Below, in pieces: positions 26,471-64,000 of a stretch of 64,000 nucleotides of DNA. Numbering within the stretch: position 1 is the first letter of the stretch; every line of letters starts with the position of its first letter. The position numbers were made by a program, and so were the translations under genes. The stretch is from assembly GCA_030159075.1 (NCBI GenBank), contig BROG01000374.1, forward strand, positions 248,001 to 312,000, written 5' to 3'. The stretch is from Atrina japonica. Lineage: Eukaryota > Mollusca > Bivalvia > Pterioida > Pinnidae. The notes under the pieces were generated by a model. That model was not told the origin of the DNA. It made no database searches and worked only from the letters and a program-made list of their open reading frames with translations.

Positions 26471-26773
26471 TACACACACAATTTACAAGTATAATCATAC
26501 ACAAACAATATATGATCACTATATACCTTACATTCCTATATACTCCTATTTTCATCATTAATTTTTTTCCAAATATTACACCTAAGAGTCATAAGGATAC
26601 AGACCACAATAACACTTGTGATCTCTTTATATACCGGTAATAAGAAAAAACAACATATCATAACATCCTGTGATTAGTATCAGACATCTGACATGTTAAA
26701 CCCATTGAACACTATATATACATCATATGTACCTATGCTTATCACATCTATATAGTAACAATGATATTAACAT

Positions 26774-26779
26774 ACTTAC
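26774..26779 (-). other. Splice donor, GTAAGT
   Basis: The complement of ACTTAC. On the minus strand the exon ends TTTGTTAA and the intron begins GTAAGTATG, a full consensus donor. Confidence 0.55.
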
Positions 26780-28860: not shown

Positions 28861-28864
28861 ACAA

Positions 28865-29025
28865 AACAGTCAAACTTGCTTTGGAGACCACCTGGTCATA
28901 AAGACTGTTTTGCGCTGTCACCAATGGTACCATTTGTGTACAAATCAACCTCTATATAAAGACCACCTGACTATAAAGACTGGTTTTGTTGTATCCTTAT
29001 CCTTATATATACAAGTTGCACTGTA
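28865..29025 (+). mobile_element. TACAGTG-family MITE, subfamily 2
   Basis: AACAGTCAAACTTGCTTTGG to ACAAGTTGCACTGTA, with TGGTCATAAAGACTG and TGTACAAATCAACCTCTATA inside, collinear with the copy at 13,388. Confidence 0.8.
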
Positions 29026-29059
29026 CTTTAATTTTTCTTTCAGATGCAAATCAGATGTT

Positions 29060-35251: not shown

Positions 35252-35298
35252 TACATGCATATCAATCATTTAAATGCATATTACAAGGAAAGTTATAT

Positions 35299-35469
35299 GG
35301 CAGTTCAATTTCACTCCCATGACAGGACACAAGAAAACCAATCTTTATAGGGAGGTGGTCTTTATATAGATTGATTTGCACACAAATGCTACTACTTGGG
35401 ACAGCGCAAAAAATGGTCTTTGTGACCAGGTGGTCTTTATACACAGGTGATAAAGCAGGTTTTACTGTA
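35299..35469 (-). mobile_element. TACAGTG-family MITE, subfamily 2
   Basis: GGCAGTTCAATTTCACTCCC at the left; TCTTTATAGGGAGGTGGTCT, GATTGATTTGCACACAAATG, GACCAGGTGGTCTTTATACA inside; GCAGGTTTTACTGTA at the right. Same orientation as 8,056. Confidence 0.75.
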
Positions 35470-36970
35470 ATTAATTTCATCTTTTTAAACATTTAGACTC
35501 TTCTTTGTTTTTTTACTGGAACAAACTATTACTCTTCCAAAGGTAAATCAGGTATCTACTCTGATTCAGACAAAATTTCATCTTATTCCAATTTAACGAC
35601 ATACATTTATCCTAAGTACATCAATGTATTTACATAATCATCAAGCCTTCATATTTCACAAAAATATCTGTTCATTTAAAACCGAAATTACGATATAGCC
35701 CAAATGACAAACACTAATAAAGTCGTCTTGTAAAGGCATGATTCACCTGAACATAACAATTTAATTGCATTTTAAATACCTGTTAAAAATAAAATAACAA
35801 TGACAATAATTACATAGGGCAGACATAACAAATACAGATTTAAAAAAAATCATTTTCAACTCGACTTGTCATACAATTTTGAGTGACACCTAGTGATATT
35901 CTAGAACTCTAAATGTAAAAATACAGAGGCAACTAGGTTACCAGTCAGATATGGCATAGTATTGATATACTAGGGGTACTATGGCAAAATGTTGATATAC
36001 TGGGGTACAGAAATCACAATTTGATATTTTAAAGGTAAAACAAGCAAATATCATTCACCAGTTTTTCATTTTGGTATTAAATTTCTTTTGTTGATTACAC
36101 TGTTAAAGTGTTTGAAATCTCTTGGACAACGACAGACATGCAATCGACATGCAATTTTGTAACAACTTGTGAGGTAACCCAGATAATACCTCTAGTCTAT
36201 AACTGTTAACTTGTAAAGTAATCAGTCTGTTTCCATAGAAACTGAGGGTACATTATAAATTACAGACCTGCAAAATTAGATGACAACAATTGAAGTTTTA
36301 AATACGATGTCAAGAGATAGATAAACATTTTGTCGGAAATTTCTGAAGTTTCTTGCACGACAAATTCACTTACTCCCCAAACATTGAACTTTTTAAGTGC
36401 CTATACCTTTCAAGTAAACTTCTACATGTAACCCAATGACACAGTTAGACAATTCAGTGTCATCCTTTGAAATAAACCAAATGTACTTACAATGTACAAG
36501 TCTCTCCTTGTAGCAACTTAATAAAATCTGGAAACATTAGGAGAATGAAACCAAAAATACATGATAATCTCCCCTTGTGAAAAATTAAAAAGAATTTTGT
36601 TGACATCAAAAAACTTGTGGAATACATAAGACTAAGAATCAATTTCATAACTGAACAGAGTAAACAATTTCAAAATTATTTCATATAGCATACTATTAAG
36701 ACCAATGAATGCTCCACCAATGGAACCAATAATACAAGGATTCTCTTCCATGTGAGTAACAAAGCAAATCATAATTAGGATCCTGAAAACTAAACCAATT
36801 AAAGTACAAAATTATATCCTTTTTTAGAGTTTCTACCCCCAATACATATCATACTGACCGACTAAAGACCATGAACATTAGACTAATGAAACGAGCAATA
36901 AAGGATTGTCTCCCCTTGTTAACTCCTGACCAAATAAGTATACTGTAGGCACTGTACATCAAACCAATGA
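35470..36970. other. Non-coding stretch
   Basis: No supported exon or element. An ACTTAC donor-like word at 36,485 on the complement has no matching acceptor. Confidence 0.45.
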
Positions 36971-38911: not shown

Positions 38912-39118
38912 TATAACCTTGAGAGACCACCCCATCTACCAATGAAATGTGGTCTCTCAAGACAGGTGGTCTCTCAAAATATGTTTTATTTAAAAGATAA
39001 TTGAACCAAGTGGTTCTTAGAATATGTTGTTACAGATTATAGGTGCTCTTACATGAAACTGGTCTTATATATTATAAGTCTTACAAAAAACTGGTCTTTC
39101 TATACATGTTTCACTGTA
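38912..39118. mobile_element. TACAGTG-family MITE, subfamily 1, left end eroded
   Basis: ACCTTGAGAGACCACCCCAT, CAATGAAATGTGGTCTCTCA, TTAAAAGATAATTGAACCAAG and the right end ATACATGTTTCACTGTA. The left terminus is missing its TACAGTG. Confidence 0.7.
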
Positions 39119-39129
39119 TATATATCGAC

Positions 39130-39260
39130 ACCTCTGTTGCATTCGATTAGGCGATCCGTGTTACGCGAATTGTACTCCAGACAAATAAAACAAGTACGCA
39201 CCGGGTGTGGAACATGAGTGACACGAGTTTACACCCAAATTTCCCGAGAGTACTCGAGTT
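39130..39260. other. CpG-rich patch in AT-rich DNA
   Basis: About 130 bp with roughly ten CpGs (CGATTAGGCGATCCGTGTTA, CGCGAATTG, TACGCACCGGG, CACGAG, CCCGAG, TCGAG). A short plus frame is open here (LHSIRRSVLRELYSRQ region) but ends at TGA near 39,216. It could be a young transposable-element fragment or a regulatory patch. Confidence 0.4.
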
Positions 39261-39390
39261 CAAAGATTGCGGATAAAAAATAGCAACAGTTAAATGATGT
39301 GAAGAAAAACCATTTTGTCAAGAAAAATGATGGTTTTACTAGAATTATTAGATATACTCTTGAGTGAATTTTAATTTTTGAATGAAGAAT

Positions 39391-39960: not shown

Positions 39961-40100
39961 AAAAGGTTAGTTGATGATGTGTGAGTTGGGGAATTTATTA
40001 TTGTATGTAATTATTTTGATTGTTGTGTTATTGGGGTTGAATGATGGAATTTATATTATGTTTAGTCAGTAATCTGTAATGTGTTTTGGAATACTACATG
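39961..40100. other. TG-rich, almost C-free block
   Basis: Of the 120 bases 39,961-40,080, 55 are T, 31 G, 32 A and 2 C. Its reverse complement has the same look as the block to the right (A- and C-rich, G-poor), so the skew flips sign at about 40,100. No coding or known element. Confidence 0.85.
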
Positions 40101-41613
40101 ACAGGGATAGAAAAGTGAAGGCACAGAGCATATATGGAAATTATTTCCGAAAGTAAAAGCAGAACAAAAAGTGACAAACATAGAAAACACAGGAGAACAA
40201 TTATATAGACATTCAAAAACAAATCACACATCACAGTGTAAATTCACATGATATTGTACATCAATAGACCCAGCATTACACCCACCAAGGCCAAAGTTAC
40301 CAAGAGTGTCAGAGCCCAGCACAGTCCACCATCCCAGTAGTAGTCTACACAACCACTTTAGATCGTACCCAGACTCAACAGTGAAAATATGACAATCAGA
40401 ACAAGTCAAATTGTAAACGAGTGACATCATATCAAACCATCCCCAATGAGACTGCAAGCAATAATAAATTAACAACAAAACCATTAACAGATTACACAAA
40501 CCCCGAACAAAAGAAAAATAAAAATCCCCCTCATCACTATATTGCACAAACAGACAACGGTTAGAAAACACAAATACTATCCATTAAGTTCCACCACAAA
40601 TATGCCAGCCCCCCCAAAACTTCCTCCACCAGGCAAAATAAAATACAAACAATGTCAAAACAAGACTAAATGGAGATCGCAGATCCTAATACAATATGAT
40701 GAGAAAATGGAATAAAAGACCAACAGCACCTTGTCCAAAATGACACAAGTACCAAACCACACATGAAACCAGTCAAAATCACCCATCACAAAATCCACCA
40801 TAGAAAACACAAACTACAAAACCATTCCCCAGTGATCCACAGCCTACCCAGAACCCAGCACAATTTATATCAATTTAGTATACCAACTCAGCACCAAAAA
40901 CATTACCACCATAAATGGAGACAAATACCAAGTAATATGCCAATTCCATTTTATCACCAACGAATAACCCGACACAATTCAAGGATACAAACCACATTCT
41001 CTATATGACAGACACACCCATTAACATTATCATGTACCAGCAATAACCACAGATAGAAGAGTCCAAACCCACCCACAGAGCACCACATACACCAATCATC
41101 AGGCAGACACTAAACAATCCATTTGCACACACAACCCATATCAAATCAAAAAACATATAAAAACCATACAGAACCAACAATTCCCCAATTGAATGTACAT
41201 CAAAGGATCATCAACACAAATTGATAAGAAAATGTCCAGTGTACAAATTCAAAACATGTGGTTACAAACAACTACCAATCCAAAACATAATAACATCCAA
41301 TAACCACACACAGCATGAACAATCCAATCAAATCAAAACAAACAATTCACAGTTCATTATTGTACACAACAAGTTAGTCATCAATTAAAGTAAAAACCCA
41401 GTCCATAAAGAACCCAATCCATACCAGTTATCAACCCCACCCCAACAATTCCAACTCAATAATTATTAATTGACATGACATCAAGATTATAAAAACAATA
41501 CCTACTCAAATCATAGGGCTAAACATGACTAAGACCATACAAAACAAAAAACAAAAAGAAACACAATAAACCATGTCAAGGCTAAATTAGGCCATTGGAA
41601 CCATAGTAAAGCA

Positions 41614-41622
41614 CCCCCCCCC
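41614..41622. repeat. C9 homopolymer
   Basis: One of several C-runs of eight or more in the A+C-rich block. Confidence 0.9.
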
Positions 41623-43960
41623 ATCCAACAACAGAAATCAGCAGGAATACAACATGGTGAAGATCACAATAATCAGAGCCCACAACAAGGATAAACCAGC
41701 CAATAATTTTGTGATTGAACACCAGCACATACAAAAATCCATAAAACAAAGTGTGACACAGACACAAAAGTAAACAATCACATTGTGCGCCCAGTAACAT
41801 AAATTCCAAAAACAAAGGTGGAATTATATATTACAGAACCAACCACAATCCAATACAATCCCAACCATGTAAAATACTAGTCAATAGATATAAACCACCC
41901 AAACACCATCAAATACATTTCAAGTAAAACCGAACACAATAGAAATACCACCAAGAAGACTAAGTACAATAAACCTTACATCAAACAGAAATAAATCCAG
42001 TCATAAGACAATCATTATAAACACACATGCATAAAAGCCCCCCCATCCATTTAACAACACAATCCATACATTTTTCAAATATACACATCTGAAAAGCCCC
42101 AATTAATCCATAATATTAAGCAGAAATATTGTGACCCACCACACAAACTCAACCTAAAATTTATAAATTGACCCAATAAATATCCAATATATAGCAGTTT
42201 ATCAGAACAGCCCAAAAGAACAGTCCATCAAATACCATGAACAGATGACAACACAAGACTACCCCCAACACCCTAATTTAACTATGAGAATGCAAACAGA
42301 AAATTCCATAGAAACAGCCATCACCCAACATTACCCAACAATGGTTGGGGATACCAGTTAGATGGATAGTCACAAGACATTAATCCCCCAAGCCCCAATT
42401 AGCCCTATTGCCAAAATAATAGCCAACACATACCAGATCATTATCACATCAACCTAGAACATGTGACCCAACAGGGTAACAACAATATGAGTCACCAACA
42501 ATACACATAATAATACCCCCCAAATGTAGAAACCAAAGTTACCCATATTCAAGAAACAATTCAATAAATCCAAAAATCGCTAACCAGGGGCAGCGTAAGC
42601 ATATGACCAAATGTAAAAATAGAACAAGAGGAAGGAATCAGTACCATCAGTCCAAAGATATTCACAGATTTCAGACCCATTTTTAACCCAACAATGATAT
42701 CCAACAAGCCAACCATCAAACAGTACATTTACCCAGCAATGCACCATCAATGACGGCAGCCATTCCGAAAGCCAGTACCACAAAACACATAAGGAATGTC
42801 AGACACAAGCCACACAAAGTCAGCAACATAAAATCCCCATAACGATCAACAAACAAAAGGGAAACTATCTCCAATGAAGTAGTAGTGTACAACAAGTATG
42901 GTTCATGGCAAAAACATGAACCGCCGCCAGTATAGAGTGTAGTATATCATGGTACAAATTATCCCCACCAAAGTAGCATGCAAACCAAACAGCCAGCCAC
43001 ATAGAGTAATGAGATACCAATAAAAAAAGTCAACCCCCCCGGTCCCAACCATAAAACCGACTAAGAGAGTACACCGGGAGAGGATAAGACTATCAACTAC
43101 AGTATGACAGCGATAATAACCACCATGTTGTCCAATTCACAAAAAGGACAATGATTGAGCCAGCCACTCCACACACTACCAGTCAGAAGTGGATATCCAA
43201 ACCAAAATTTCCCCAGATGCTCCCACAGTCAAAAAATCCCAACCAGCCAATGGCAATCAAGATGACACCAGAGAGCCAGGCAGTGACCCCATCAACAAGA
43301 ACAAAGTCAATGAATACATGGGGAGTAAAAGTTAACAAAAAATAACCACCAATGTGGATGGTGCACAGACTACAGAACAACAGACTAACAGAACCACAGA
43401 AAAAGATACATATAGTAGGGACAAAATACAAAAACCTCTAATGAATGTCAGACCAAATGGCCCTCACCCACCCAAAAATTATCAATTATAATGCAACTGC
43501 AGCCAAGCAGACTTGCAATCAGTGACAAGACCCCAGAAAAAAACCATGACATCCACCACAGCAAGTATACAGAACAGAAGAAAACATGCCCAGTGCACCA
43601 TGTAACACCAGGAGATCCCCACCGTAAACCAAAACAGATATATACCAACCAACAAAAAGACCCAACAAACCCGAAAATTGCAACCCCACACAGGCATACC
43701 CCCCAGCAACACACAAAAACAGGACCCACGCACACACTCGCAACCACAAGAAAGCCAACCAGCAGGACCCCAATTACCACACACGAGATATAGTGGCAAA
43801 CATAAGTGAACTACACCAAGATCCAGACAATCATGACCCAGGACAGCATGAAAGGATGCCCGAGAAACCAAAGCATAAAATATATACTAAGATAACATCA
43901 ATAGTCAAACAAAACTAAAGATTAGCAGACAAAAAAACAGGGACAGTAATCATAACACAA

Positions 43961-43992
43961 TGTATCATTATAAAATAACACACAATGATACA
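43961..43992. repeat. Small inverted repeat, 9-bp arms
   Basis: TGTATCATT (43,961-43,969) and AATGATACA (43,984-43,992) pair perfectly around a 14-base loop. No T-run follows, so it is not a terminator-like structure. Confidence 0.6.
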
Positions 43993-46900
43993 CTGAATCG
44001 GCAGGCCCCCCTCTCCCACAAGACCAGTCACCAGCCCTAACAGGGCCAGGACAACAAACATCCAATCACCAAAACATCAAAGCAATACACCCCCTAATCC
44101 ATGATATTAAAACCCCATAAAGGAAATGAAAAACAAAACCATGGAACAAATTAACACGAAAACCACACCATCCCACAAATCAAACAATGGTAATCATCAA
44201 GTGCAATGCCCAATCTAAGGTTTGATTAGAAAACATAAGCGACACCATCCAGCAAAAACATAAACAGCACTAACAGAGTGCACAATAAATAGGCACAAAC
44301 ATAAGCCATGATCCATAACAAAGTAGTGGAAGCAGGGTTCCAATGAAAGTGCACACAAAACAATATGAAATATAAAAATGTTACATCATAATTAAGACAG
44401 AATAAAACCCACAGACCTTCATAGTGAATTTTGATCCAACAAGAAAGTACAAGTCAGAAAATATACCTAATTAAGACAAACAAATCATCAACAACGAACA
44501 CCCATACATTATCCTCATATTGGAATAGCCCCATAAAAAACTCAGCATGAATTTTCTTCAATAATGAACCCACCAAATGGGAAGACAAAGTGACATAACC
44601 CTAGAGCCAGCAAGCAAGGCCCAAAAGTCCAACAAATCATTGTAAATTATTACTTCAAAACAAGAAAAATGAAACAACGAAGAACATAAAGGATCACTTA
44701 CATCAGAATGTTTATCAGATATAACAGAATTGTGTGCAAGTAGTTATGACCATTTGCCCCAATAACCAATATAAATAACACCCAAGCACCCAGACAGACA
44801 CAAGATCACCCCACCATCCACACATTTAATTGCCAAAAAGCGAACAAATCCATTGGGAACAATTAATATTAATTCCAAACATCAATAGTGATTAATTTAA
44901 CCAGCAAGAAAAAAAAGCACACCGAACAACAACAAAACGAAATCATCAGAGAATGCCACCAAAGTTATGTCATATACCACATTGTGCAGCTAATCATATT
45001 CACATAGTCGAATATGCATAGCCAGATTTGCCAACACTAGCAAAGAGAACAACGTGCACAATGGCCATTAAAAGTGCCATATAAACTAGAACACAGGCAG
45101 TACATTTAGACATCCAGGTTTAGTAAATTGAATGACCCAATTATAATCTCACATTTAAGTGAAATGCAGGCCAAGCGACAGCCCAATAGTACAACACACA
45201 AACAATTGAAATAAGCAAAATATCATAACCAAAACACCAAATACATCCCAGGTTCACCCCATGAATGTAGCAGCATTGAGAAAACATCCAACACCGTACA
45301 ACCCAACACATATCCTCAAACAACAGAAAGAGAATACATCTTAGTGAATAATACAAGTATATCAGTGTGAGCCACAAGATGACAGAATGCCCACAATCAT
45401 GAGAGCACCCCGACAATAACCCCAAATTCAATACCACATAGTGCATAAATCCAACACATCCAACAATATAAATTGACATTAAAAAATAAACCCATGACAT
45501 AGCCCAAGACAAGTCAGGGCCCATATGACCCCCCACCTAGTAGCAATGCCCCCCACAAGAAGGCCCCAAGCACAAAGACAAAAAGTCAAACATCAAAGCA
45601 AAATGCCAGATCACAAAGGCCACAGCAGGTGGGAAAAACAAGTGAACCACGGGAAACCCCAACACACCATGTCCAAGAACATTTAAGAACAAATGACCCA
45701 AGAAGGAGGCATATGAAGAAAGTGTTGAGAAGTCAGATGCAGATTCACAAATCCCCTCACCTCGCATGTTCAAGAAAACAATAACCCCTAATTATGGTAG
45801 AATCAATGAACACCACACAAGCAGTCCAATTTATCCAAGCATAAACCCCAAGGTTGATCCAATAGAACCATACAGATACCATAAGTGATAGTAACAACCA
45901 GCCAAAACAATATTCAAAACAGATCACCTCATCAGATGAGCCATCATAATGATTCACATCACAGAAGACAAATACCAACCCCTATTGGAGTGCCCCCAAC
46001 ACAATAAAAATATGTAAAGGGCATAAGGACAATAGGCGACCTAGCGACATGCCCCACCAGCAAAACCCAAGTAGCAAGAAACCATAATCAAACCATAAAA
46101 GCAGTTCAACACCATCATATAAATGACAAAAGGTAAGCCATGTGTACACATGCAGCCATCCAAAGAGAAGCGCCAAACAAAAAGCCAATATTGTTGCCAA
46201 GCATGGCAACCCCAATTTACGAACAAACAGTCTATGAAAAGAGTCAACCAAGTACAAACCAAGAGATAACAGCACCCCAAGAAGAGAGCAGACAAGAGAA
46301 AAGGCAGAGTCACAAAAACTCGAAAAAATCAGAACATAAAGTCCCCGGAACAGCTAGAGCAAGGCATATCAGAAACACACAATGAAGAGCACATAAATCC
46401 ATGCACCACCAGACAAGTACAAATAGCATAGGAAAAGAACAACCCAACATCCAAAAATCATAAAATCCAAATATACAAAACAAACCATATCATAGGGAGA
46501 GAATCACCCCCAAAACCACAAGAATGACGAGAATCTCCAACATTAATCACAAATCAATGACAAGCACGCAAAAAAACAATGTGCATCTAACAAAAGCCAC
46601 TAGAAAAATGAGAAACCATTAAACACCATAGAACACATGCACTCACACCATGTGAAAATCAACACAAAATCATAACATCAATTAAGCAAAATTATAAACA
46701 GTTAAGTGAAAGTAAAAAAAACAATGCGATTGAGCCTATGCTATCAAGTGAACATTGTAGCCCAAATAAAATAATTGCCCCAACCAATATGCCATTGACC
46801 CCACAAAATAGAAACCCAGTCAATAACATTTCAAGATCCAAACACTGAAAGTAAAGTGGACAGACATGGCAACCCCCAAATCCTAAGCAAGACAACAGGG

Positions 46901-48188
46901 AGCCATAAAATAATTGAATCAACTGCCAAAATAAAAAACATACAAACCAAACCCCAAATCCCACAGGTGCCAGTGTCAAAATCACAGGCAGTGGACAACA
47001 GGCACACCAATGAGAGTCCCACCCTAAATAAAAAAAAACAGTATTATAAAGTCCCAGAACATGAGCAACCATCCAACAGTCAGCAAACAGATCCATCATC
47101 CCAGTCCTCAGACTACAATCACAAAACAGGCCCATAGAGGGAGAGATCACAATGGTATGTACCATTTGGCACAAAAAACCCCATCACCCCCAAATCAAGC
47201 AAACAGTCAGCACCGATTTGCTACAATAACCAAAAAGTGTAATAATGAAAAAATGAAAGAAAAGGAACCAGGAGTACCCAAGAGACCACATAGAAGAAAT
47301 CCACAAATACAGCAAGGTATGCATGTGCAGAATCACGTACAAAAAAACCATAAGACCATAGACCATACAAAGTAAAACATAAAAATCAGGACCACATAAC
47401 CCTGAGTCCCAATAACAGACACAAAAAATAAATTAAATTTCTATGTATAGATCCATTGACCAAAATTTCAACAAAAGAAATTTGTCCAATCCAACTACAA
47501 TAGAAAATTATAGAGCACACAACATCCAAGAGCATCAATCATGCACAATACACCCACATCAATGGGAAGTCCCATATGCCAACCAATCAGGTGATAATTA
47601 CATACCAACAAGAATCAACCCATCAGCAAAAGTTACAACTGCATCCAAAGTTTCTTTAATTCAACACACCATAGTAACATATCAAATCATAACGGACAAC
47701 ATAGGTGTACAAAAGTGATAGAATCCACCTATCACATGAAAGAATTGAATATAAGTGTAAAGCACAACGCAATATGTCCATTATAATTGTCAATATATCA
47801 GAGGTCTATTCAGATAAATGTGATATAGCCCCGAAATCTCCACATAACCAATGCAAGCACCAAGTGCAAAGTAACACAGAATCCATAAGAAGTAGTAAAC
47901 ACATAACGCATTAAAACAGTACAAAACAAAAATTGAGAAGAAGTGACCACAGAAATCAAAAGCATGCCAAAAAAGCAAGGATAATGCCACCCAAGACATT
48001 AGAAAAGGATCCAAAGGTTAAAACCAACAAATTTGGTAAGTATACAATCACCACATAAGGAAAAAAAATGACAGACACAACAGAGCAGAACCATGGGGAC
48101 AACTAGCCCCAAACCCAAAGTAAGGTAAGCAAATCCCATGCAACACAAAAGATGAGCTCAAAATGATTAAGCACATTGACCAACCCAA

Positions 48189-48216
48189 CCCCCCCCCCCC
48201 CCCACCCCCCCCCCCC
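48189..48216. repeat. Long C tract, C15-A-C12
   Basis: C15 (48,189-48,203), one A, C12 (48,205-48,216). The minus strand is a near-pure G tract able to form a G-quadruplex; the plus strand could form an i-motif. Length is prone to sequencing error. Confidence 0.9.
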
Positions 48217-51200
48217 GCCATAATAACACTAAACCCAAAAACCTAGTATATATGCCACACACACCCAAACATTAAGAAAATACAGTCAACACGCAAGAGC
48301 AATAGCCACCAATAACAGCCAATACAGACCCAGAACACCCCAACATAATAAAAGAGGAAGCCACCACCCCACAAGATAATCAAGTACAATAAGAACCATA
48401 AAAGAAGAAAATAGACACCAACAAAGTAAATGTCAATTAGAACTGACACCCACCAAGTGCAAAATTAAAGCGCAAGTTAACATTCCAAACAACACATGGG
48501 CCATCAACCAAATAAAAGTAAAAACAGAGACAGAATGTGTGATTATAAAAGAAGTACAACACCAACATAGGAGTAGCATGCAACCCATTATCTGTGCCAA
48601 ATATTAGAGTGGACAGAGATTCACAATGAAAAATATTAAACAACAACAATTATGTATAGCATGGGATTTAAATGTAGAGTACGACAGTATCCACCAACTC
48701 ACATCCACAGGCCCGAGATACCAAAGTCCAGAAATAATACATTCAACCTAACCATAATCATGAACAAGACCACACATAACTACAACCACTACACAAAGCC
48801 CAAACAATAAGAATCCCCAAATACCATTGAGACATAATTGACATGTACTCCCAGTACACAACACGCAAAATATAACCATTCATACGACAAAGCAGTCCAC
48901 ACTAAAAACACAAAAAAGTCCAGGAACCGATTCTACTAAGTAATCAAAGCAATGGATGCAAGTGCCAAAGGCAGCAACCAATGATGAGCAATCCCATTAA
49001 ATAGCCCATAGTTGTAGAAGTCAGCATTGCATAGGGTGGTCCAAACAAAAAATATACAAAATAGTACATCGAAAAGAAAAACATGATAAACAACATGAGT
49101 ACAAACAAACAGCATGGTAAACACCAGTCCATGTATGTATCACACACAGATAAGAGAAAACAACACAACCACCCCTACCCAAACACACTCTAAATCCATA
49201 CAAGGGTTAGACATCAAGGCAGACAACATACAAACAAACCAGTAAGAAACAACCCAACACAGAGGATCATGGATATAAAAGTACAAGCCACTATTAAGCA
49301 AGCCAGATCATATAGTACAACACCATAGTGCATTAAATACCCCCACAAGTGACACAAAATTGTACACACCCCACATAATAATAATCCCAAAAATGCATAT
49401 TACACAAAGCAAACCAAAAAATAATAAACACAGAAAACAGCCATAACAATACCACCCAACAAACATATCCAAACATAGATTTTCAGATACCAAATACACA
49501 ACACCCAAAGCAAAGAAAAATCCAGCCCACATCATAATAAACCCACCCCCAAATCATCCCAGAAGAGAATATCGCCCCCACAACCCCCATCAAATAAAAC
49601 ATGCAAAGATACAGTCACAAATCCAATAAACACCAAATAAGAAAAGCCAATGCCAATTTAAACACACAGTATCATATCCATCAACCAAGATCAGAAAGCA
49701 ATGCAAAGAACAGCAAGCCCAAGAAAGAATAATCACAAGTTAACCAAAAAGGAGAAGTAGCAGATCCAAGGACCCCCCATCAATCCATAATTTGACAAGC
49801 CCCAACAGTACAAGCCACACATAGCAAGAAGTGTCAACCAGCCCAAATCCAAAATTATACAGCATACAGTAAGCAAATAAATATGGAAAGCGAACATATT
49901 GACAAGTCAATATCAGAAGAGTAGGCAGACAGCATCACAATAAGAAACACAAGAGAGTGATTACCAGTTATCCAGACAACAAATACCCCCAGAAGCCCAT
50001 CACCCCAGTCATTAGGTAACCATAACATCTATAAAGGTGCAAAACCATGGCTTAAGTACCAGTACCATCATCAGGAAACGAATTTGCAGTCAAAAAAACA
50101 GAAAAAACAAGAGTCCACACACTCGAATCCATACACAGTGAGCTAAATAAAACAACCAGACCACAAGAAAACACAAGAAGAAATTCCATTACATAAATAA
50201 TACCCACACAACGCCCCACCCCCAAGTTTAACCACATGAACAGCACGCCCATCACCAAGGAATCAACATGGTTTCCCAACCAAAATAATCACCAAAATTA
50301 CACCAGATTCACAATTAATAATCAATAATCACAAAGCAAAGCCCAAGAAAGAAACATCCAAAAACACACAAATTACCCATAAATTATACCATAAAAAACC
50401 AAATACAAATAACCAATCCATGCACATCACCCTGTTGGTCCCACATGACCCAATACAAAATTAGCATATGCAACACCCCCCATCCACATCACAATAACCC
50501 ACCCACAGTCCAGTATAGACCACAAAACAGTAATATGAAGCCATCCAGGAACAAAAATTGTACACACAAACAACGAAGTTAGTCAAAACATCAAATAATA
50601 GGTAACATACAAACAACCCACAAATGGCAAAAACAAGATAATAAAAAGAAACCACAAGATTGAAAAAGGCAATTAATGTAATCCGAAGAACCAAATCCAC
50701 CAATCCAGACAACCAAAAGTTGCCAGCCCCCACAATAAATGAAAGGATAAGATCAAAGCAAAGTACAACCCGCCAGCCAAGTAAAGTGTCAATGACAACA
50801 AACCAATCAAAGATAAGTCTCACCCAAGTAAAACCATCAGCAAACCACAACACAATACACCAACCAACACCCCATCAACAACATTGAACACCAGAAAAAT
50901 GCACAAGTGTCCATAGTGTTATCGACCCCAACCATGAGACAAAAGCCCATAAATATAAAAGTGTCAGCAAGAACACATGACAAGAGTGCCATAGACAAAA
51001 TTCATAATCAAAACCCAATCCCCCTACCATCACATTGCAACATTCCGTCACAATGCAAACAGGTAGCCCAAATTACAACACATGCCAACCATACAATGAC
51101 AAGAAAATCACTACAGCACAACACACAAGGTGAAACACAATCACACCCAGATCACACCACATAATATAGGAAAAGAATAACACTAAAGAGAAGCGAGTTA

Positions 51201-53438
51201 ACAATAAAGATCCCAACGTAGAAGAGAAACACAGAACAGACAAAATTAGTCACAAAGTGCAAAAGCACAATGTAGCAAGGAAATGCCAGAGAACAGATCC
51301 CCCAAGCAAGCCCCAACACTAACGATAATATTCCCAGGCTAAGGAAGATGTGAGGGGGGAACAGGTAAAAACAAGAACAGTACAATTGTAAAAGGTGCAC
51401 ACTAAAATAGCCCATCACACATATCGCAACCCACCAGAAGAGAGAAACACTAAAACCATGGCAAACAAACAAATAGCAACAACTAACCCACCAGAAGTAA
51501 AGGCTAAAGAAGAGAAGTCCCAGCATTACCACAGGCACACCCACCCCGCCCAACATATAAGCAAACAAAGAATCACATCAACAAAATATCAACATTAACC
51601 AATCACAGCAGTAGGGGGAGAAAACATTTTATTGCCCCATATAAGGTAGAACAGACATAGATAAAAGACCCACCCCAGTATCAGACACCATATGAAGTGA
51701 GACACACGTAGAATAGAGATAAACCTTTCACAATGAGAATTAATCAACCCACAGTTAACCAGGATCATAACAAGTCCAAAACCTCAGCCATATGCACAAA
51801 ACCAACTATACACATAACCAGGAATTAGATCCATGTACATAAACAAAAATATCAAGATACAAACCACAACGAAATAAACACACCCCCACAAGTAAAGCCA
51901 CCCACCAAAGAATATCCCCCCAAGTACATCCCATACAAAACCCCCCCAGAAACCAGAGCCCCCCACATAATAATCCAAACATAACACATTGGCAACCAAA
52001 TTTATCGAAACAGAAACAAATGAACAACATGACCACAAGAAATAACCCATCATCCATGTGCCAGAACAATGTACAGTGAACCAATAAAATATAAACAGCC
52101 CACAAGGACCCAATCCCATGCCTACAGTACACAAAACCATATCAGAGGGCAAGTATTAGAATGAGACCAAAAAGGTTGAGGAACATAAAGGAACACCTCA
52201 CAAAGGCCATACCACAACACAAAGCAAACAAGCAACCACCATTATAGTCACACTAGGTGACCTATGTAAGTTGAAGTCCATAAAGAACAGTGAACAAGCC
52301 ATAAAATCCATATAATAAGAACCACAATCAAAGAAGATTCCAAGCCAAACAATTCAACACAACCCCAAACACCAATGCCCCCATATCAAGGCAGAAAAAT
52401 ATACATAAACCAACAGTCATCAACAAAAAGCGAGCCAGTAGAGTCACTATTACAATCCACATCCAATGGTGGGTACCATGTCTCATATTTTGTGTAAACA
52501 ATTCCCCAGATGACAGCAGTGGCCATCCCCAATCCAGTAATCATTCAAACATAGAAGAATAAACACAGTAGAAACATTTACAATGGAAGTTACATAAGCA
52601 AACAGTATGAAGAAAAGCAAGAATTGCAAATCACCAACCCCCCCATCAAGATGCCCAGAACATGTATACAAAAAAACAGGCAAAAGAAAACCACCCAGCC
52701 CAACAGAGTCCACACAATTGCAAATAGATAATATACAGCATAAATTTGACAACCACAAGCAGTCCACCCACCTGTCATAATGAAAGAGAACACACTCAGC
52801 CCCAGATACATCATAGCATGCAGAACGACAATAAAAAACAAAGTCACAATCAAATATGATGATGGAATTATTACATTTCACAATCATATGTCCACACCCA
52901 GCCACCCACCAACCAAATCCAACCATTAAACATCATTATATTGTGAATACCCCAGACGATGCTCGAAATCATAAACAATGTCACTGATGTCCTAACCAAC
53001 ATCAATCAAACAGAATGACATCACAAATCAAACACACCATATCCGACCAACCTACCCCATTCATTGCCAACATGATCACCCGACAGTTGAGTGCAAAGGC
53101 AATCCCACAAGATATAGAGCACAACAAACACTAAAAATAAAATGATGCGTAGATGAGTCCAACAATGTCAATAACAGTATCAAATCCAAAGTGCAGACTA
53201 AGCCAATTTAGCCATATAACCGACTCAGTGCCAATAAAGACATGGTTATCATGTGCAGTGTGCCAAGCGAGTAGGACGACAATCAAACCACTCAATCAAG
53301 AGGATCACAAACATAAACCTGAATAAAACCAATTCCAAAACCACAATAATACCCAGATAAAAGTCATTTAGGCCAAAATAGTCACCATGAAGGACATACA
53401 AAATAAACATAGTATAAAATGACATATCATGTAAGATA

Positions 53439-53446
53439 CCCCCCCC
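53439..53446. repeat. C8 homopolymer
   Basis: Part of the recurrent C-run pattern of the A+C-rich block; a C7 run also lies at 54,052-54,058. Confidence 0.85.
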
Positions 53447-56400
53447 AGAAGTACAATACCCCACCCTACAGAGAGAAATACCACCAATAAAAACACAGCC
53501 ATGATTAGATGACACCACCAGGAATTGTCAGAACATACACCAACACATAATATAAGATGAACAGCAATTAATAATATAACAATTCAAATGGACAGTTCCA
53601 AGCAACAAACCCCAACAATATTAATCAAATAACAAATATGCTAGCAGAAAACCATAAGTAGTGTCCCGCCGTTAAATCCCAATGCAAGTCAAAAGATTCC
53701 CAACCCACCCAACATTAAAAATCCAATGACTAAGAAGTGTGTCCATTCATATGGTCACACCCATACAAGCCACAAAGAAAGTACAACATAAAGTTGAACA
53801 CATAAAGTTAACACAACCCCCCTAAACAAGGGTGAACAAGTGCACAAAGAAACTCAGAATGATACATATAAAATAACCCAATAAACCCATCACCATCAAT
53901 GTCTCAAAAAGACCCCAATAGACAGCACACTAATCAAATGCAATCCAACCAGTCAGAAACCAGCCACATGTAACCCAAGATCCCACATCATCCATAGTAG
54001 ACACAAGTGACAATGCCCCCAAAACAATAAACCAATAGTATTATCATAATGCCCCCCCTTGAATATGAAACCATAATAGTAACTACAATACATGAAACAC
54101 ATCCAATTAAAAATACGATAAAATCCACAGTACGCCCCCAGGAAAGTAACCAACCATACATAGAATCCCAAACTCAAAATGCCCCATAAATTACAAATAA
54201 ACCATGTGCAACAATCCCACAAACAGACCAACATATACCAGAGACAATGTCTCAGAGTAGAATGAAGTAACCATATTACAAAGACCTATATACCCACACC
54301 CCAGTGCAAAACATTGAGCTCAACAGTTTAAACAAAACAAATACCCCAAACCCACAATCACCCAATAACATACAACCCTAATCACCAAAAAGCATGAGCC
54401 CCGAACAATAAACCATGATACAGAGTCCAATGAAAGCATAAACACCCAAGTTACCCATGCTGAGGATAAATGAACCCCAAATACAACCACCCACGATCCC
54501 CCATCCACACAAGATACATAGGCATATCCGACACAACATCCAACAAACCACTAAAGGCAGTAGGACATAACCAGGGCAAAACATCAGAACAATACAAGCA
54601 TCCAAATCAACCACACACCCACACAAAATAATCAGAAATAGATAAAAAGCATAACAATTCAATTAAATGGAGACCACTAAGCCAGAGCAGCAAACAAGTA
54701 GCAAATAATCGCCCAAACACAAAAGTCAAAAAAATCAACATATCCGATCATCCAAGAACACAAGCAGAATTAATCAGTACCCTATGCTAATCATCCGCCA
54801 AGGTCCACCATCAAATCCATTTTGTACACCAATGAAGAAAATTAGAAACTATAATAAGGGACAGTATACATGAAGGATATCATTCCAAACACAGGTAACA
54901 ACAAATCATAAGTCAACAATACCAAGAATTTCCAATAAAACCCGATCCCCTAACCCAATGTATAAGAAACAAAGCCAACACAACATAAGCAGCCCAACAA
55001 CCAGGAAGCCAATACAAGTCAGTAAATATCACCCTACACTCAAGATATAGTAAACCCAGCCAACCCAACTACATTTACCCCATCAAATCAACTATTTAAC
55101 CAAAATCAATGCAAAACCAACACAACATCCAAGAAAAGCCCATCCAAACACACCCCCAAATGACCCCCCATAACATCAGAGAGGAGAGACCTAGGTTTGT
55201 CCAACAGAAGGCCGACAAATGAAACTACCACAAATTAATTCACATACATCAAGATCAAAATAACCAAGGAATAACAAAAAAAAGCAAAGAACAGCAACAC
55301 AGAACATAAAAAACCTAAAGATAACAAGCATAAACACAAATCAGTAATATTATTACAATAACAACCATGCCAGTAATACAGATTCGCAAAAAAAATAAAA
55401 TCCAAATCAACATGTACTAAAATAATTCAACACTATACCATACAAAGACAGCAAAGTACAAACACCAACAAAAGCACAACTTAGTACAAAACAAAAACAG
55501 GGACCATTATACCAATATCCAAAAGATGATACCATCATGTACCAATCATCAATTCATAATCAATCAGATGAACAAAACAGCAAAACCAGTATGACCATGG
55601 CCAAAATTATTTAAGGCCCAGGAGACTAACACACAAAGCATTTACCAAATTCATAATATATAAGATCATTGCATCCACAAAAGAAAACCAAAGACCATCA
55701 TTCCAAAGAGACAAAGGTTGCCAGCAGTACACACAACCCCTGACCAAAGATAACAGTGCAGACAAAAGTACCCAAAGAGCGTTTAAATAAATTCCAGTCA
55801 CCAGCAACCCAGATTGAAAAGGAAAATGCCACACAGTAACCACAGAAAACAAAGCATCAAATAATCAAACTACACAATCAAACCATGAACCCAATTCCAC
55901 AAGACAGCACCCAGAATCGGACGAAACCAATAAAAGTTGGGGTTGTGATCCCAAAAGCAATTCCATAAATCACCACACTACAATCATCCAAAACCAGGTT
56001 GACATCCGACACAGATATTCAAATACAAAAGTTCACAATGCACATAACCAGACCCCCCATTAGAAAAACCAAAGAATGCAATCAATGCCCATCCAGGATA
56101 TACACAACCAAATTAACAAGAATACATAAAAAATATAAAACCATCAACATAAATACAGACACAGAATCAACAAAAAAGGCAGATGTAGACAGCATAGAAA
56201 ACATGATCCCCGGATACCACTATCCAGTAGCAAGAGAAGCCCAGGGTTTCACCCCCCAACCATGCCAAACACACTCAATCCCCATCAACAGAACAGGACC
56301 AACACCTGGTCCCAAACCCAGGAAAAGAAATCAACAGGAATAACCCATAAATATCATGCAATGATATAAACAGTAAATGTGTAACAGACATTACCGCAAA

Positions 56401-56636
56401 TGAAGCACGCCTGTGTAAGCCAAAGTTCATAAATAACATTCATCCCCAATCCAAATCCAGAGACCATAATGAGACCCCCATGCATAAGAGTCAACCCACA
56501 ACCCCACGCACAAATGGCAACCACCATCACAAGCCAGCACCCCACAACACATAGACAAGGCAACACCATTACATCTCAGAGGTACCCCACATGATCCCAA
56601 AGAAAGATATAGACCCCCCCCAAAAATTTCCAAGAA

Positions 56637-56645
56637 CCCCCCCCC
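56637..56645. repeat. C9 homopolymer
   Basis: A C8 run lies about 25 bp upstream (ending near 56,621), so the minus strand here carries two close G-tracts. Confidence 0.85.
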
Positions 56646-59600
56646 AACACACCCCGATGCAACTACATTACAGCAAACCAAGTGATGAAATTTACAACAA
56701 ACCAACCAAAACAGGTATACACAGCCACCACAAACACGACATAGAGCCCAGGACACACAGAAATGACAATGCCCAATCACACACAACAATCATTATAAAA
56801 CAGTTTACACGGAAAAAGCCCATCAGTCCCAACATCCAAAAAATAAACAATTTGAATGACCATCCATAAGGGATCCAGTCAAAGACATATAAATGAGAAC
56901 CCACCAAACCTAGATATATCCCCAGATAATGTACGCACACAACCTCACAATTGCACCACAAGTAAACATCATCAAGTGACAAAAATATCCCAAAACAGGT
57001 CACACTAAGGTTCATCATAAATACATCAAAACCCACACAACATCGGATAATCTTATTATATCACCCACCCACCACAAGTCAAATAAACAAATTAAGTTAA
57101 AGATCATCCCCACAACATCCAAAGCCCAAGTTGTGGCCCAATCCATACACCCTCAGGTCAGATTATGCCAGTTCTAGCAAAAATACATAACAGCCCCCAG
57201 AAGATAATACCAGAGAAAATCAATAAATTGCACCAATAGGCAAATAAACGATAATGAAAACCCAACAAACACCCATTTCTTCAGACAAAAATGACATAGA
57301 TCATTATTTCCAAATAAGCGAGCTTAACCAAGACAACCAATTTCATAAGCCCAAAAAAAAGTTGTGCAAAGGCAACATCCAAAAAATATGCCTAGAAGTC
57401 CAAAAACCCAGCACAAGAACCATACGAGACAGCCAACCAGAAAGAAAAACCATCGAGCATATCTCCCCCCATTAATATACCACCCAAAGAAAAACATCAG
57501 AAATTATCCTATGCCACAGTTGAATATATGCCCCAACCACCCAAATATATGTAATATCGAAACAAAAACAACACCATGTCAATTAATTACCACCATAACA
57601 ACTAAACAAAGTGTAAGCCAAGCCAAGCACCAGATGGATCACAGGCAAATAAGTGTTGCATCCAACCCATTACTAGCACAAGAATCACAAAAGCACAGCA
57701 ACCTAGAACAAAAAGAAACACAACAAACCATGATACACATGCATAGTCATCCTAGAAAATAAAACCATATCACTACACCCGAAGCAAGCATTAAGTGCAT
57801 AACAGATAAATCATCATGAATATGCATCAACATAAAAGATATATAATAAACAAGAGGATCCGAAAAGAAATCACTATCCACCAACCAACACAACCTCCGA
57901 ATACAAGCAGACACCAAAACAATATAAGAATCAAATAGTAAAATGCAAATCAATTAATAAAGAACAGTTAAGATGGGTATGCCCAAGTATCCATATATTT
58001 AGAACTACCACATTCAACATGAATAATGCAAACATAACATGCCAGTAAGACCCATAAAGAAAACAAGAAGCCCACACAGATCCATAACGACGACCCACCA
58101 ACAAAATCAATGATCTAACACATACAAAATATGACTGCCATCCAAAGTAACCAACACAAACCACATATAGAGTACAGAAAATCAACAGGATGCACATTAC
58201 CATTTTCCAAAGAAACCATCACCACACATCAAAAAAATTGCAATGTACCAAACTTATCAGCCATACACAACAACGACATCCCATAAATTAAATGTCAAGT
58301 TAACAATCCACACAACATCCTAACTCACCCAAGATACGCACAGCACCTATCATTCCATAGTAGAGAGTACCAGCAAATGGTAATACTCCCATCAGAAATC
58401 ACCAAAAATAAGAAGTTCAACAATACATAAGAACATGCACAAGGTAACATTTTAGAATGCCCACCCATCAGACAACAATACCACAAATATATATATATAA
58501 TGAGAAGTCTAAGAAGAGACCAACCACTCAGCAATAGCACATTAATCCCAGAAAACATAGACAACAATCATCAGCACCATGCAAATGAAATACATATGTG
58601 CACAAGAAGTGAGCTTAACAACCCTAAGAGTCCACCACACAACCTGAACACACAAGCATGAACAACCAACCAGAATGTACCCAGAAGCCCACCTATCAGA
58701 TAAGTTTCTCACAGTGTGGATCCCAAACCAAAAGCAGTTCAACAACCATATCAATCGATGCAGAGAACCCAACCATTACACCAATAAGTAAAAGAGTAAG
58801 GCATGACAATACAGGCATCCAAGCCAGTACCTAAACCCATTCCCAAATCATGTATATCACAAGAAAGTAACACCAAGTGAAAAGACATATCACCATTCCA
58901 CCCCCTTGCCAATCACCAAAACACAAAAGACAATACTCCACAAAGAAACACTAAACCACAGAGACATCATCATTCCACAAGAATCAAACCACCAGCGCAT
59001 ATTGTTCCACAATACTTAGCCCCATACCAACCCACCCCACCACCAGATAACAAAGATGATTGCATAACAATCCCAAGTATTTACAAATGAAATACCACAA
59101 ATCAAACCAAAACACAACCAATACCCATAAGCATCAAGATCACATAAGTGAAGGGCCAAATGAAATAAAGCCCACCATCCAACCCATTATTATATCTAGG
59201 AAGTAAACAAAAAACCACCAAAAAAAATTTAGATCAAACAATGACCCACAAGCACACAAAAATGGATAAATATTTATAAAATCTACCACATATTGAATGA
59301 CAAAAGAAATTCCTGTCATCATCCAAGTACCCCAAAACCAAGAAAACCAACAACCCATCAAAAACCAGACCAATATCATTGTTATAAATGATCACATGGA
59401 TAAAATATCAATGCAATACCAATCACAGGTCACCAAAAACCCATTCAAGCCCCACAAAGCATAGCAATGTGTCATGAAAGCAACAAACAACCATGAAAAA
59501 CAAGGCCAATTCCACTACCCCCACCGCCCCCCATAGAGTTGCACATGGCACCAGAGTTTAGAAAATGTGTCCCAAGGGCAACAATCATTCATACACCTGG

Positions 59601-61234
59601 CTATCAAACATTTAAAATGACTAACAAAGTCAACAGATAACAAAAAAACCATAATTGCTCCATCACTAGTCCTCCTACCAAACTGAGACTACAGGAGTAG
59701 CCCACAAAGAGTACAGAAATCCAAACAGTGCAGTTAGTAAGATCAAAGACCCCAATACAGCAAATAAGACATAGAAAATAAACCAATTTTTCCAATATCC
59801 AGATGCCATAAACACCCACACCATAAAACAACCCACAAACCAACAGATACTCCAAGTAAGAGAACCGCCAACACCAGAAGAAAATAAATTGCATTCAGTG
59901 TCCCCATATTGGACCACCCAAAAAACCAAAAATCAATATCTGTGAACTCAGTGCAAAAGAAAAAAAGTCAGTCAAACAACCATTCCAATACAGCCCATAC
60001 TAGAACTTGACACCAAACAGTTTTTGGAATCAGCCACAGACAGTGTAACAACATTAAAAGACACATCAAGGCCAACCATAACTGAAATCAGTGTGAGAAC
60101 CCCACAAAACAACAATTAGAGGAGCCTACCAGTAAACACCCAATCAATTCCAAGCAACAGTGAAAAAGCATTATCATACATAAAAAAATAAATTGAGAAA
60201 CATAAGCCCACAAAAGAAGAAATTCTAATCCACCACAAACCACCGCCCCAGTATGCCAGTCAAAGCCAAACATTACATCAATAGAAGATGTATACAATGT
60301 TATCAAAACTCACAAATAACAGTTCAGCACCCAAAGTCCATTCCAAATCATAATAAATCCCACAAGATTTTACATAAACCCCACCATAACACTCCCAACA
60401 AAAAAAACCCAAATAGAAATCTACCCAATACAACACCCCCACCAACACAATACCCCAAACAATGAAAACCAAATGAAATACCCCCCGGTGTGCCAATCCA
60501 ACCCTCGATCAACCATGTATACCAAATGATCCCAATGTAGGCACAAATATGAGAACCAAGTGCATAATAACATGAATACCCTTCCCTCAATTATACCAAT
60601 TTATAATCCAAAATAAAAGTCACAAATGGCAGTCAGGCGAAAGACACACCCACCAAACAACACCCTACCATTACACCCACGTCAACCAACCACATTGGTG
60701 AACAATAGAAACATTCACATTCAGCCAAGAGTAGCACAACAATGTAACAAGCAGAATGACCAAATAGTCAAAAAATGAGAGTCCCAAAGGGACATCACCA
60801 AATCCCATCTTAGTAACAAGACAAGATGAAACAAACCAAGAATTGAAGAGCCAAATTAGATAACAAAGCCAATACATCCAGAAACCACAAAGTATTACAC
60901 TATTCAAAAATTAAATTCATGGAAACACCAAAGTCGCAAATCTTAAGCCCATGCTAGAAACATCCCCATCATTAAATTCATACAAACAGAGAAGACCCCT
61001 AGGCAGAACATGTTGCACCATGCACCCCCCAAATGATCAGTAATTAATATCAGTACCAATAACACAACAGGTAATATATAGTGAAGCCACATATGTGACC
61101 CCCAAAAATGAGATCACGAATGGAACATTCCAAATTATCATCAAATGTACACAAATAACATAAAATGCCATGTAAGATACCAATCATAAAAAAACAACCA
61201 GCATGTCATGAATGAAGAAACCACAATGCAGAAT

Positions 61235-61243
61235 CCCCCCCCC
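61235..61243. repeat. C9 homopolymer
   Basis: Another C-run of the A+C-rich block; no G-run longer than six was noticed on the plus strand of the block. Confidence 0.9.
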
Positions 61244-64000
61244 ACCAAATATAGTACCAAAAAATATAGTCCAACCATTGATATCAAAAAAGGAGCCAAA
61301 AAAACATGTAATATATAACCAAAAGCACAAGACACCAGCAACCAGCAAAACATAGTAAATAAACAAAAGAAGAAAGCAGTTTCCCATCAAAGTCAACCAC
61401 CAAAAATCCACAATTAGAACCATAAAAATACACTATGTTCATCCAGATGTAAGACCCCCAAAAGAGGAAGTAAAGTGAAACCACAAACATCCAACGAGCA
61501 ACAATCCACACAGAAATCCCACAGCATATAATACACAAATCAGACCAGCCAGTGTGAAAACAAGTAAGATATAGGAAAAAACAAATGAGCAAATGCATCA
61601 TAAAGCACCAGAATTCAGCGTCAGGAAAGTAAGTGCCCAATTATACACCAGTCCATCAAGCCACAAGGGTTCAGCAAATAGTCACCACAGGTCCGTTGCA
61701 TCCCACACAGTTAAACACCCAAATAGAATTGCAAACAGTGCAAAGTTATCATTATATTAAACCTCAAAAGATAAAATTCAACATTTAACACCAAACATTA
61801 TAGACCAGTCAGTAAGTCAAAGAACAACCAATAATGATGCACAAGAGAAGAATATAAGAATTCCAAGTCAACCACAACCCATCTGAACCCAGCAATCATA
61901 ACCAGACATAACATTAGAAAAAACACATAATAGCAAAATGTAAGTCACAAAGACAGACCATCAACCCAACCAACGAAATATTATAGGCCACCATCCATAT
62001 GAGTCTAAAAAATACACCAAAGCGTCCATCTAGTCACACACATGAGCATGAAAAGTACAAATTACAAAAACATAGAATCAGCAGAGTTCAGGGCAAAGTA
62101 AAAATGTAGGTGCAACACAATGACAATTAAATTATATGGAGAGGCCTAAACTGAACCAGTAGGCATATAACCAGGGAGGGGAGACAAACAGGCCATAGAA
62201 CCACAAAGAACAAGCACATTAGCAGAGTCGCCCAAAACCCATCAAAAATATAAAAAAACAATTGCCTACCATGTCCCAGAAACCAAAAGTGTCAACGTAG
62301 TGACCACCTCAGACAAACAGTCCACAGCAGCAAATGAGCAAGTTGCACAAAACACCAGTGCCCAAAAACAAGTGCGAAAACCACAGAGCCATACACCCCA
62401 GTGCAAAAGCAAAAGAAGTGATGAACAGAATTACCAACAAAACCAAGCATGCAGTCAAAACACAGTCTAGTCATAACAACAGTGCCCAAGAATAGAATAA
62501 GTAAAAAGTATCCAATCCCCAATCCCCCGACAGCACTCAGCATAAATCCTAATGCCAAGGTATCAACAAAAATTCCACCCAAAAACCACAAAATAGTCCA
62601 ACACAAAGGATTAAAATAAGCCAGAAACATGCAGAAAAAAGAAAAATACTAGTTGAAATGAGAGTATACAAAGTAAAACAATGCACCACACAGATCCCAT
62701 CCCCATATTTCAATACACATAACCAAGGAACAGAATTCACACCACCCCAAAGAGATATTGAGAAGTCAACAATACATAATACCATCCCCAAACCCCACCA
62801 GCAAAACAATAAATGAATCAATAACAACAAACAAATACCCCATGTGAAACAATGCAACCATCAAGTACCACCATCCAGGAACACATAGGCCCCCCCAGTA
62901 CAACCACACAAAAATAATAAGAGTCAGCAGGACCCCATGGTAAAACAAAACGCAAAGCATGACCACATGAAATACACCAAATGTGCAAATAGGTCACAAA
63001 ATACCAAATAAAGTCAACATTGATTATCCATTGCACCCCAATAATTCCAATCAGGCAGATTAATCAGTACATTAAAACTCCATACGAAAAGGGACCAAGA
63101 ATCAATATAAACCAACAAATAGAAAGAATAGACAAAGAAAGCAAACAAGCAATACGCGAAAAACCACCAAGCCCCAAAATTGAACAAGGTATATCCCCAC
63201 CATGAATACAACACACCTCCAGCTATAACAGTAGGTTAAGCTCAACAAAAAACACATCATAGCGCCACCATGGCAATTTAAACAAAAGTCAGTGAAAACA
63301 TGACCACCATTGTCTTTAAGAATATTGAAATGAAAAGACCATAAACCGAAAGCTGTACGCCAGTAAAAAACACAACACAGCCATGTGCACAGCCACAGCA
63401 AAAACAGAAATACCAACCAGCAATCCATGATGCAGCACCAAAATGTGTCCCCCTTAAAACAAATACAACAGGCTATTCCACCAAAAACAAAACCACCATA
63501 AAAGGTATTAACACTTAACAAAAGAGCGAAACCCCCAGAATAAGTTATGCCCACCTTGTCCATTACAGCACATCAAAATGCAACCCAAAACCCCCCCAGT
63601 GATGATGCAAGTGATGTGGAGCCAACCACCAATATCACAAGTTAACCCATAGCCAAAATTGCCCATGCTTGCCCCAGTAATTAACACACAATATACAAGA
63701 TAGAGGATACAGCATTAAAGCCTCTTACCCAAACCAATACATACAGATAAAGAACCAACAAGACAAAAAATGATACCAAAAGTCAGAAGGACTAACAGAA
63801 CCCAGTACAACCCTAACATAAAATAGTTTTAATCCATGATAAAAACAAATTGCCATGAAACTAAGCAGTCACAAAGATACCAAAAAAGTAATACCACATG
63901 CCACTACAATTGCATGTCACATTAATATAAAATACTGGATGTTGGAGAACACAGTATGTCCATACAATCCAGCAACAAAGAATGTAAGAAATCAAAAACA

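Follow-up and report, generated by a model that had tools for sequence, protein, structure and literature searches.

A block of 37.3-37.4 kb whose two strands differ strongly in base composition lies in contig BROG01000374.1 (here C374; 706,327 bases) of the Atrina japonica genome assembly GCA_030159075.1 (832 Mb, 2,347 contigs). The analysed window is a stretch of 64,000 nucleotides of this contig (C374:248,001-312,000, forward strand); the block begins at window position 40,096, or at 40,147 according to a second model, and continues to C374:325,487, and 13,487 of its bases fall past the right end of the window. Insertions, slippage, CpG decay, higher-order structure and detectable relatives, which are most of the usual traces in animal DNA, are missing from it. 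The remaining traits could have been produced by single-molecule noise: a composition peculiar to one strand, a short memory, abrupt ends and apparent uniqueness. As the likeliest reading, with a probability of about one half, we favour a non-genomic origin, in which the block does not faithfully represent the sequence of the animal and stems, for example, from a single aberrant long read that entered the contig. The statistics of the block, its edges and the lack of detected relatives are observations, and the instrumental cause is inferred.

Results

Extent, edges and composition of the block

The minus strand of the block consists of T.453, G.258, A.168 and C.121 (purines 0.426), corresponding on the plus strand to an AT skew of 0.46 and a C-over-G skew of 0.36. 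Every 1-kb window between 41,001 and 64,000 has an AT skew of +0.38 to +0.53 and a GC skew between -0.25 and -0.45. Over the first 40 kb of the window the GC skew stays within about 0.2 of zero, except in 26,001-27,000 (-0.31), where a CA-rich minisatellite lies. In 2-kb windows the (A+C)-(G+T) skew of the block is 0.42, compared with a mean of 0.022 in 110 flank windows (standard deviation 0.053, maximum 0.217), i.e. 7.5 flank standard deviations over the flank mean. An earlier note on this stretch, made from the sequence alone, had described an A+C-rich plus strand over at least 23.9 kb with an abrupt left boundary. Skews in 1-kb windows and hidden Markov models (HMMs) confirm the asymmetry and extend it; the right boundary, which the note had proposed to look for, is put by an HMM at C374:325,487.

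The left edge is put at 40,096 by a three-state first-order HMM and at 40,147 by a second HMM, trained on 264 kb, which delimits the block as C374:288,147-325,487 (37,341 bases, score 4143). Both edges are sharp, being complete within about 100 bases in a 50-base table and in the HMM segmentation. Ordinary, unskewed DNA is found upstream and downstream, and since the block is internal to the contig a contig-end artefact is ruled out. A fold-back or duplication of the flank was also rejected, because the 2.5 kb beside each edge gave alignment scores of 178, 191, 191 and 194, at the level of the controls (means 192 and 209, standard deviations 68 and 66, 24 controls each). No target-site duplication was found near the edges beyond one 8-mer, of which about 0.4 are expected by chance.

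A weak form of the same asymmetry was found neither in the 110 flank windows nor at 80 points across the genome. None of 100 sampled points scored as block; 80 of them, hand-picked and 400 bases long, came from contigs C1-C760, and the other 20, each of 250 bases, from the rest of C374. Among 107 windows of 400 bases at 14 other loci, one, a TG-rich stretch, was weakly positive (4.6, compared with 22-70 for block windows). Block-like sequence is rare, 0 of 80 points bounding its frequency only to a few percent of the genome. The single 1-kb piece of the block that was tested matches only itself in the genome. The scored candidates (40 of 2,181 and 40 of 5,276) included no further copy of the roughly 700 bases that precede the block or of the 490 that follow it; copy counts of this adjacent flank are lower bounds, and a full second allele should still rank first. 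The predicted folding of the single strands as RNA was compared in 25 pieces each: the plus strand of the block is less structured than the flank (-0.083 vs -0.168 per nt) and the minus strand slightly more (-0.207 vs -0.183 per nt).

Low-order texture and lack of repeats

The block is approximately a second-order Markov chain. Over 37.1 kb the gain from order-2 contexts is 82.6, compared with 17.2 +/- 3.8 in simulations, and contexts of order 3 (73.6 vs 71.2 +/- 7.1) and order 4 (304.4 vs 301.5 +/- 19.6) add nothing; a flank of equal length (37 kb) gains at every order, for example 170.1 vs 72.8 at order 3 and 495.3 vs 299.2 at order 4. For the window part of the block the Bayesian information criterion favours order 1. 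No excess of microsatellites or slippage products is present: (TG)5+ occurs 0 times (1.5 simulated) and T10+ 0 times (3.0 simulated).

In the window part of the block no autocorrelation or periodicity was detected, self-repeats are limited to a single pair of 26-base matches, and Tandem Repeats Finder (TRF) reports six short entries, each with about two copies. A tandem, satellite or dispersed repeat is ruled out for this part by TRF, autocorrelation and self-match, so that the absence of a repeat unit, as claimed in the earlier note, holds there. Comparison of this part with the left 40 kb gave no match at E<=1e-3. Transposon relics were also searched for against 280 kb in the purine/pyrimidine and strong/weak alphabets, and none were detected: the two-letter search gave 4 matches at score >=38 against 5, 5 and 4 in simulated sequence, and 56 against 55, 71 and 85, while its flank-flank control reaches 259. 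The search in the collapsed alphabets also covers transposons decayed through transitions or through A<->T and C<->G changes, of which none were found.

A context rule on the minus strand

On the minus strand of the block A or C is avoided before G: the probability of G is.073 after A and.056 after C, compared with.347 after G and.331 after T. After G and after T the next-base distributions are nearly equal (Cramer's V 0.020 vs 0.053 in the flank). CpT on the plus strand, i.e. ApG on the minus strand, reaches 0.28 of its expected frequency over the whole block; 456 minus-strand AGs are present where about 1,600 are expected from base composition, and the gaps between them look geometric, without a local exclusion zone (standard deviation/mean 1.00). 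Relative to a first-order chain, the minus-strand NAG triplets are at 0.55 (CAG), 0.71 (AAG), 0.90 (GAG) and 1.38 (TAG), and the NCG triplets at 0.42 (ACG), 0.60 (CCG), 1.39 (TCG) and 1.14 (GCG). These ratios imply that A and C act alike and that a preceding T protects. The context effect on CpG is largely one of the minus strand, the plus-strand ratios being 0.99 (ACG), 0.91 (CCG), 0.93 (TCG) and, from small counts (39 vs 27), 1.42 (GCG).

The separate CpG depletion of the host is faint in the block, with P(G|C)/P(G|A) at about 0.77 compared with 0.40 in the flank. The methylation history of the host is thus plain in the flank and hardly visible in the block, which argues against ordinary descent from this genome, although very rapid mutation might hide such a history.

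Coding and organellar content

No 3-base periodicity was found in the window part of the block, and over 37.1 kb the longest open frames under genetic codes 1 and 5 match chance, their lengths being reached by 82, 82, 37 and 86 of 100 simulations. Eight open reading frames (ORFs) of the block, two in the standard code and six out of the 17 listed for code 5, gave no Pfam match; no tRNA was found in the window, and no Rfam match in the window or in the loci L002 and L003. Periodicity, open-frame length, Pfam and tRNA searches thus give no support to coding or organellar DNA, and the earlier statement that the block contains no gene stands.

The note had also listed an insertion of foreign DNA with organelle- or virus-like skew. 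A mitochondrial or viral fragment would suit the sharp edges, and an abstract in the literature describes animal mitochondrial genomes as generally strand-skewed. A nuclear mitochondrial copy, for its part, would be expected to contain protein, rRNA or tRNA genes, which were not found in the block (Pfam: 8 ORFs only). The code-5 frames reached by 37 of 100 simulations, the missing periodicity and tRNA, the lack of Pfam and Rfam matches and the absence of a target-site duplication beyond the chance-level 8-mer all speak against such an insertion, which is already mostly refuted and which we hold to be very improbable.

Splice-like signals at the edges

Candidate splice signals on the minus strand lie close to both edges. 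The candidate acceptor ends at C374:288,094, 2 bases from the edge of the first HMM and 53 from that of the second, and the candidate donor CAG/GTGTAT would start an intron at C374:325,486, one base off the right edge of the second HMM. When ranked by a weight matrix, the donor is in about the top 4-5% of GTs (for the acceptor see Table 1). The coincidence of acceptor and left edge is partly circular, because that edge is set by the first plus-strand CT. Neither site is the best nearby, and the block itself contains better acceptors. Acceptor-like sites that equal or exceed the one at the edge number 11 per 10 kb inside the block and 23 outside, whereas donor-like sites are denser inside (42 vs 25 per 10 kb). 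When the sequence is joined across the edge sites, the frame stays open for about nine more codons until a stop, and an AATAAA follows. The joined 21-residue peptide has no PDB match. In Pfam, nothing was above the cut-off in 10 of the 531 minus-strand ORFs of at least 35 amino acids in the right (upstream) flank, nor in 10 ORFs of the left flank.

Table 1. Features at and near the left edge of the block (window positions)
Feature	Position	Strand	Basis and remarks
Window part of the 37.4-kb skewed block	40096..64000	.	HMM segmentation, composition; continues to C374:325,487
Left edge zone	40096..40147	.	Two HMMs put the edge at either end; 50-base table
Short tract of opposite skew (T+G on plus) adjoining the block	39975..40095	+	Weak; HMM score 8.1
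Candidate acceptor-like sequence TTTTCTATCCCTGTCATGTAG at the left edge	40094..40114	-	About top 4-5% of minus-strand AGs over 264 kb
Candidate AATAAA, about 94 bases beyond the candidate acceptor	39994..39999	-	Sequence

The core of the tract of opposite skew, C374:287,974-288,063, scores 10.8. Comparable segments are present elsewhere, 31 with a score of at least 7.5 being found in about 226 kb of flank, of which 14 are not simple repeats.

Elements of the flanks

Several repeats were observed around the block. Near its left edge lie a dispersed repeat at window 38,918-39,066, with dozens of copies among the matches listed, most at 80-91% identity, and a second one at 39,136-39,386, with two copies among the matches listed (80-81%). 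About 0.8 kb to the right of the block, a high-copy element of about 220-235 bases (L003 4318-4555, C374:326,318-326,555) is present in at least 40 places, mostly at 90-95% identity. The left 40 kb contains minisatellites detected by TRF (12,654-12,840; 12,930-13,338; 14,343-14,638; 19,745-20,047; 24,848-25,147) with units of 31-74 bases and 84-100% matches; in the window part of the block TRF detected no arrays of this kind. Short ORFs on both strands (window 13,451-13,768; 28,838-29,059; 35,265-35,492) share similar versions of a conceptual peptide motif, LYKDHL.IK, and probably belong to one dispersed repeat family. Farther away, a weak match to a hAT-transposase dimerisation domain (E 0.097, under the Pfam cut-off) lies on the minus strand at L005 4587-4841 (C374:346,587-346,841), and an Rfam tRNA match of 42.7 bits lies outside the window, also on the minus strand, at L012 3714-3786 (C374:241,714-241,786).

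Discussion

If the block is spurious, it would consist, for instance, of about 37 kb of basecalls of one aberrant long read, with a stalled or mis-scaled signal, bridging both flanks, or would come from a similar assembly fault. Calls from one strand of one molecule would not need to satisfy A=T and C=G, and a caller with a short memory would write low-order Markov text without transposons, slippage repeats or CpG decay, with abrupt ends and a single occurrence. The block is in fact unrelated to other sequence, as far as one 1-kb piece was compared with the genome and the collapsed alphabets with 280 kb, and it has low-order statistics without slippage or long-range structure, apart from a drift in C and an excess of G runs. 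Nanopore "high-quality noise reads", as described in passages of PMC5872496 and PMC6708270, likewise pass quality and complexity filters, match nothing and are regarded as an instrument artefact; they differ from the block in being short single reads, whereas the block is 37 kb long and lies within a contig. Among the suggestions of the earlier note, that the block was "assembled differently" comes closest to this reading.

Several points weigh against a spurious origin. Six noise reads tabulated in PMC6708270 measure 267-865 bases, far under 37 kb, and an assembler would need to have let the block pass into a 706-kb contig; one such program, NextDenovo, is described in passages of PMC11046930 as dividing chimeric reads and cutting contigs where quality is low. 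The contig sizes (C200 = 1.09 Mb) only suggest a noisy long-read assembly. No base composition of noise reads was found in the literature passages on noise, and the six-mers over-represented in ordinary reads, rich in C/G for Nanopore and in T for PacBio in the part of PMC7671305 concerned, do not match the block. In 2.5-kb windows the C content varies along the block beyond all 60 simulations; the variation of A reaches a borderline level (2 of 60), and that of G and T agrees with the simulations; runs of at least seven Gs are in excess (21 vs 12.6 +/- 3.4 simulated). The splice-like candidates at both edges have to be counted here as well.

All the readings in which the block is a real strand-biased locus, taken together, are possible and fall clearly short of an even chance. 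A nuclear locus with strand-specific germline hypermutation, so fast that 37 kb would be at mutational equilibrium, is a tentative alternative: on the minus strand A and C would turn into G and T, fastest just 5' of G and more slowly after a T, and transposons, microsatellites and CpG history would be wiped out between edges at most about 100 bases wide, possibly those of one giant intron. To our knowledge there is no mechanism for such hypermutation in nuclear DNA. The main rival to a spurious origin, though itself rather doubtful, is a real minus-strand transcription unit or one giant intron that would span about C374:325,486 to 288,094. Its older content would have been erased by strand-biased germline mutation gone to equilibrium, with A and C of the non-template strand turning into G and T most rapidly where a G follows. 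Context-dependent point mutation at equilibrium would yield low-order Markov text, the candidate donor and acceptor lie within 1-2 bases of HMM edges, each in about the top 4-5%, the frame across them closes before an AATAAA, and acceptor-like sites are half as dense inside. The T+G excess, with more T than A and more G than C on the same strand, has the direction of mammalian intronic skews; on the mammalian non-template strand four changes, A>G, A>T, C>G and G>T, are more frequent than their complements, as is C>T near the start (passages of PMC2927911). To this extent the one-directional transcription proposed in the earlier note fits; the amplitude does not, being several times larger in the block (0.46 and 0.36) than in primate and rodent introns, where the GC skew away from the start is below 0.06, and the same source reports a reversed A>G/T>C asymmetry in two fishes. 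The coding strand is moreover C-biased at gene starts of fungi and invertebrates (a passage of PMC3315797). Mammalian asymmetry continues beyond the 3' ends of genes (PMC2927911), whereas the block has two sharp edges. Neighbouring DNA is unskewed, without a weak version in 110 flank windows, and four intron samples of a kinesin gene (1,200 bases, taken between Pfam PF00225 exon matches) are unskewed too (T+G 0.518, ApG observed/expected 1.32); neither a graded transition, nor continuation past gene ends, nor a weak form in other introns was found. The denser donor-like sites and better acceptors inside, the edge of the second HMM 53 bases away and the lack of Pfam (10 of 531 ORFs) and PDB matches also count against a transcription unit.

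Selection against splice and exon signals in a real giant intron, T/G-rich and poor in AG and in exon-enhancer-like words, is improbable. The avoided triplets are CAG, AAG, ACG and CCG, which may resemble exon-enhancer words. TAG, a good acceptor, is spared (1.38 of the chain expectation) while CAG is at 0.55; CpG is avoided as strongly as ApG and in the same contexts, which avoidance of acceptors does not predict; the geometric gaps between AGs leave no exclusion zone, and selection would hardly be sustained on more than 1,000 missing AGs together. According to passages of PMC10946897, no dimer is more under-represented than AG in the pyrimidine-rich ends of introns in eight further eukaryotes, C. 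elegans being the exception among them, and in Drosophila selection is inferred to act against AG. The block shares with such polypyrimidine tracts a T content of about 0.45-0.47 and a strong under-representation of ApG, at 0.28 of expectation over its 37 kb, and differs from them in being G-rich, not C-rich, in its length, in the sparing of TAG and in the equal avoidance of CpG (PMC10946897). Deamination of one strand, another suggestion of the earlier note, fits the triplet contexts badly and is highly unlikely, whether an exposed strand is acted on by ADAR in an RNA:DNA hybrid or by an APOBEC/AID-like enzyme. A and C are both depleted on the minus strand, and A>G at ApG would suit the preference of ADAR for a 3' G; its 5' neighbour preference, U>A>C>G, predicts that TAG is lowest, whereas TAG is highest (1.38) and CAG lowest (0.55). 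TCG is spared (1.39) and ACG depleted (0.42), contrary to TC-preferring deaminases, and with purines at 0.426 of the minus strand transitions alone would not suffice. The block is also unlike the oyster piRNA clusters for which a passage of PMC6128900 reports enrichment in transposons in two of four classes. Word searches of the literature named no nuclear block like the present one among the matches listed.

An artefact of this kind would show that noise can occupy tens of kilobases within the contigs of long-read assemblies. Its simple signature, broken strand parity together with pure low-order Markov text, could serve to screen any assembly. A real block would be an extreme breach of strand parity in nuclear DNA and would offer a natural assay of mutation specific to one strand; and if the locus is hypermutated, it would be a nuclear counterpart of the strand asymmetry of mitochondria.

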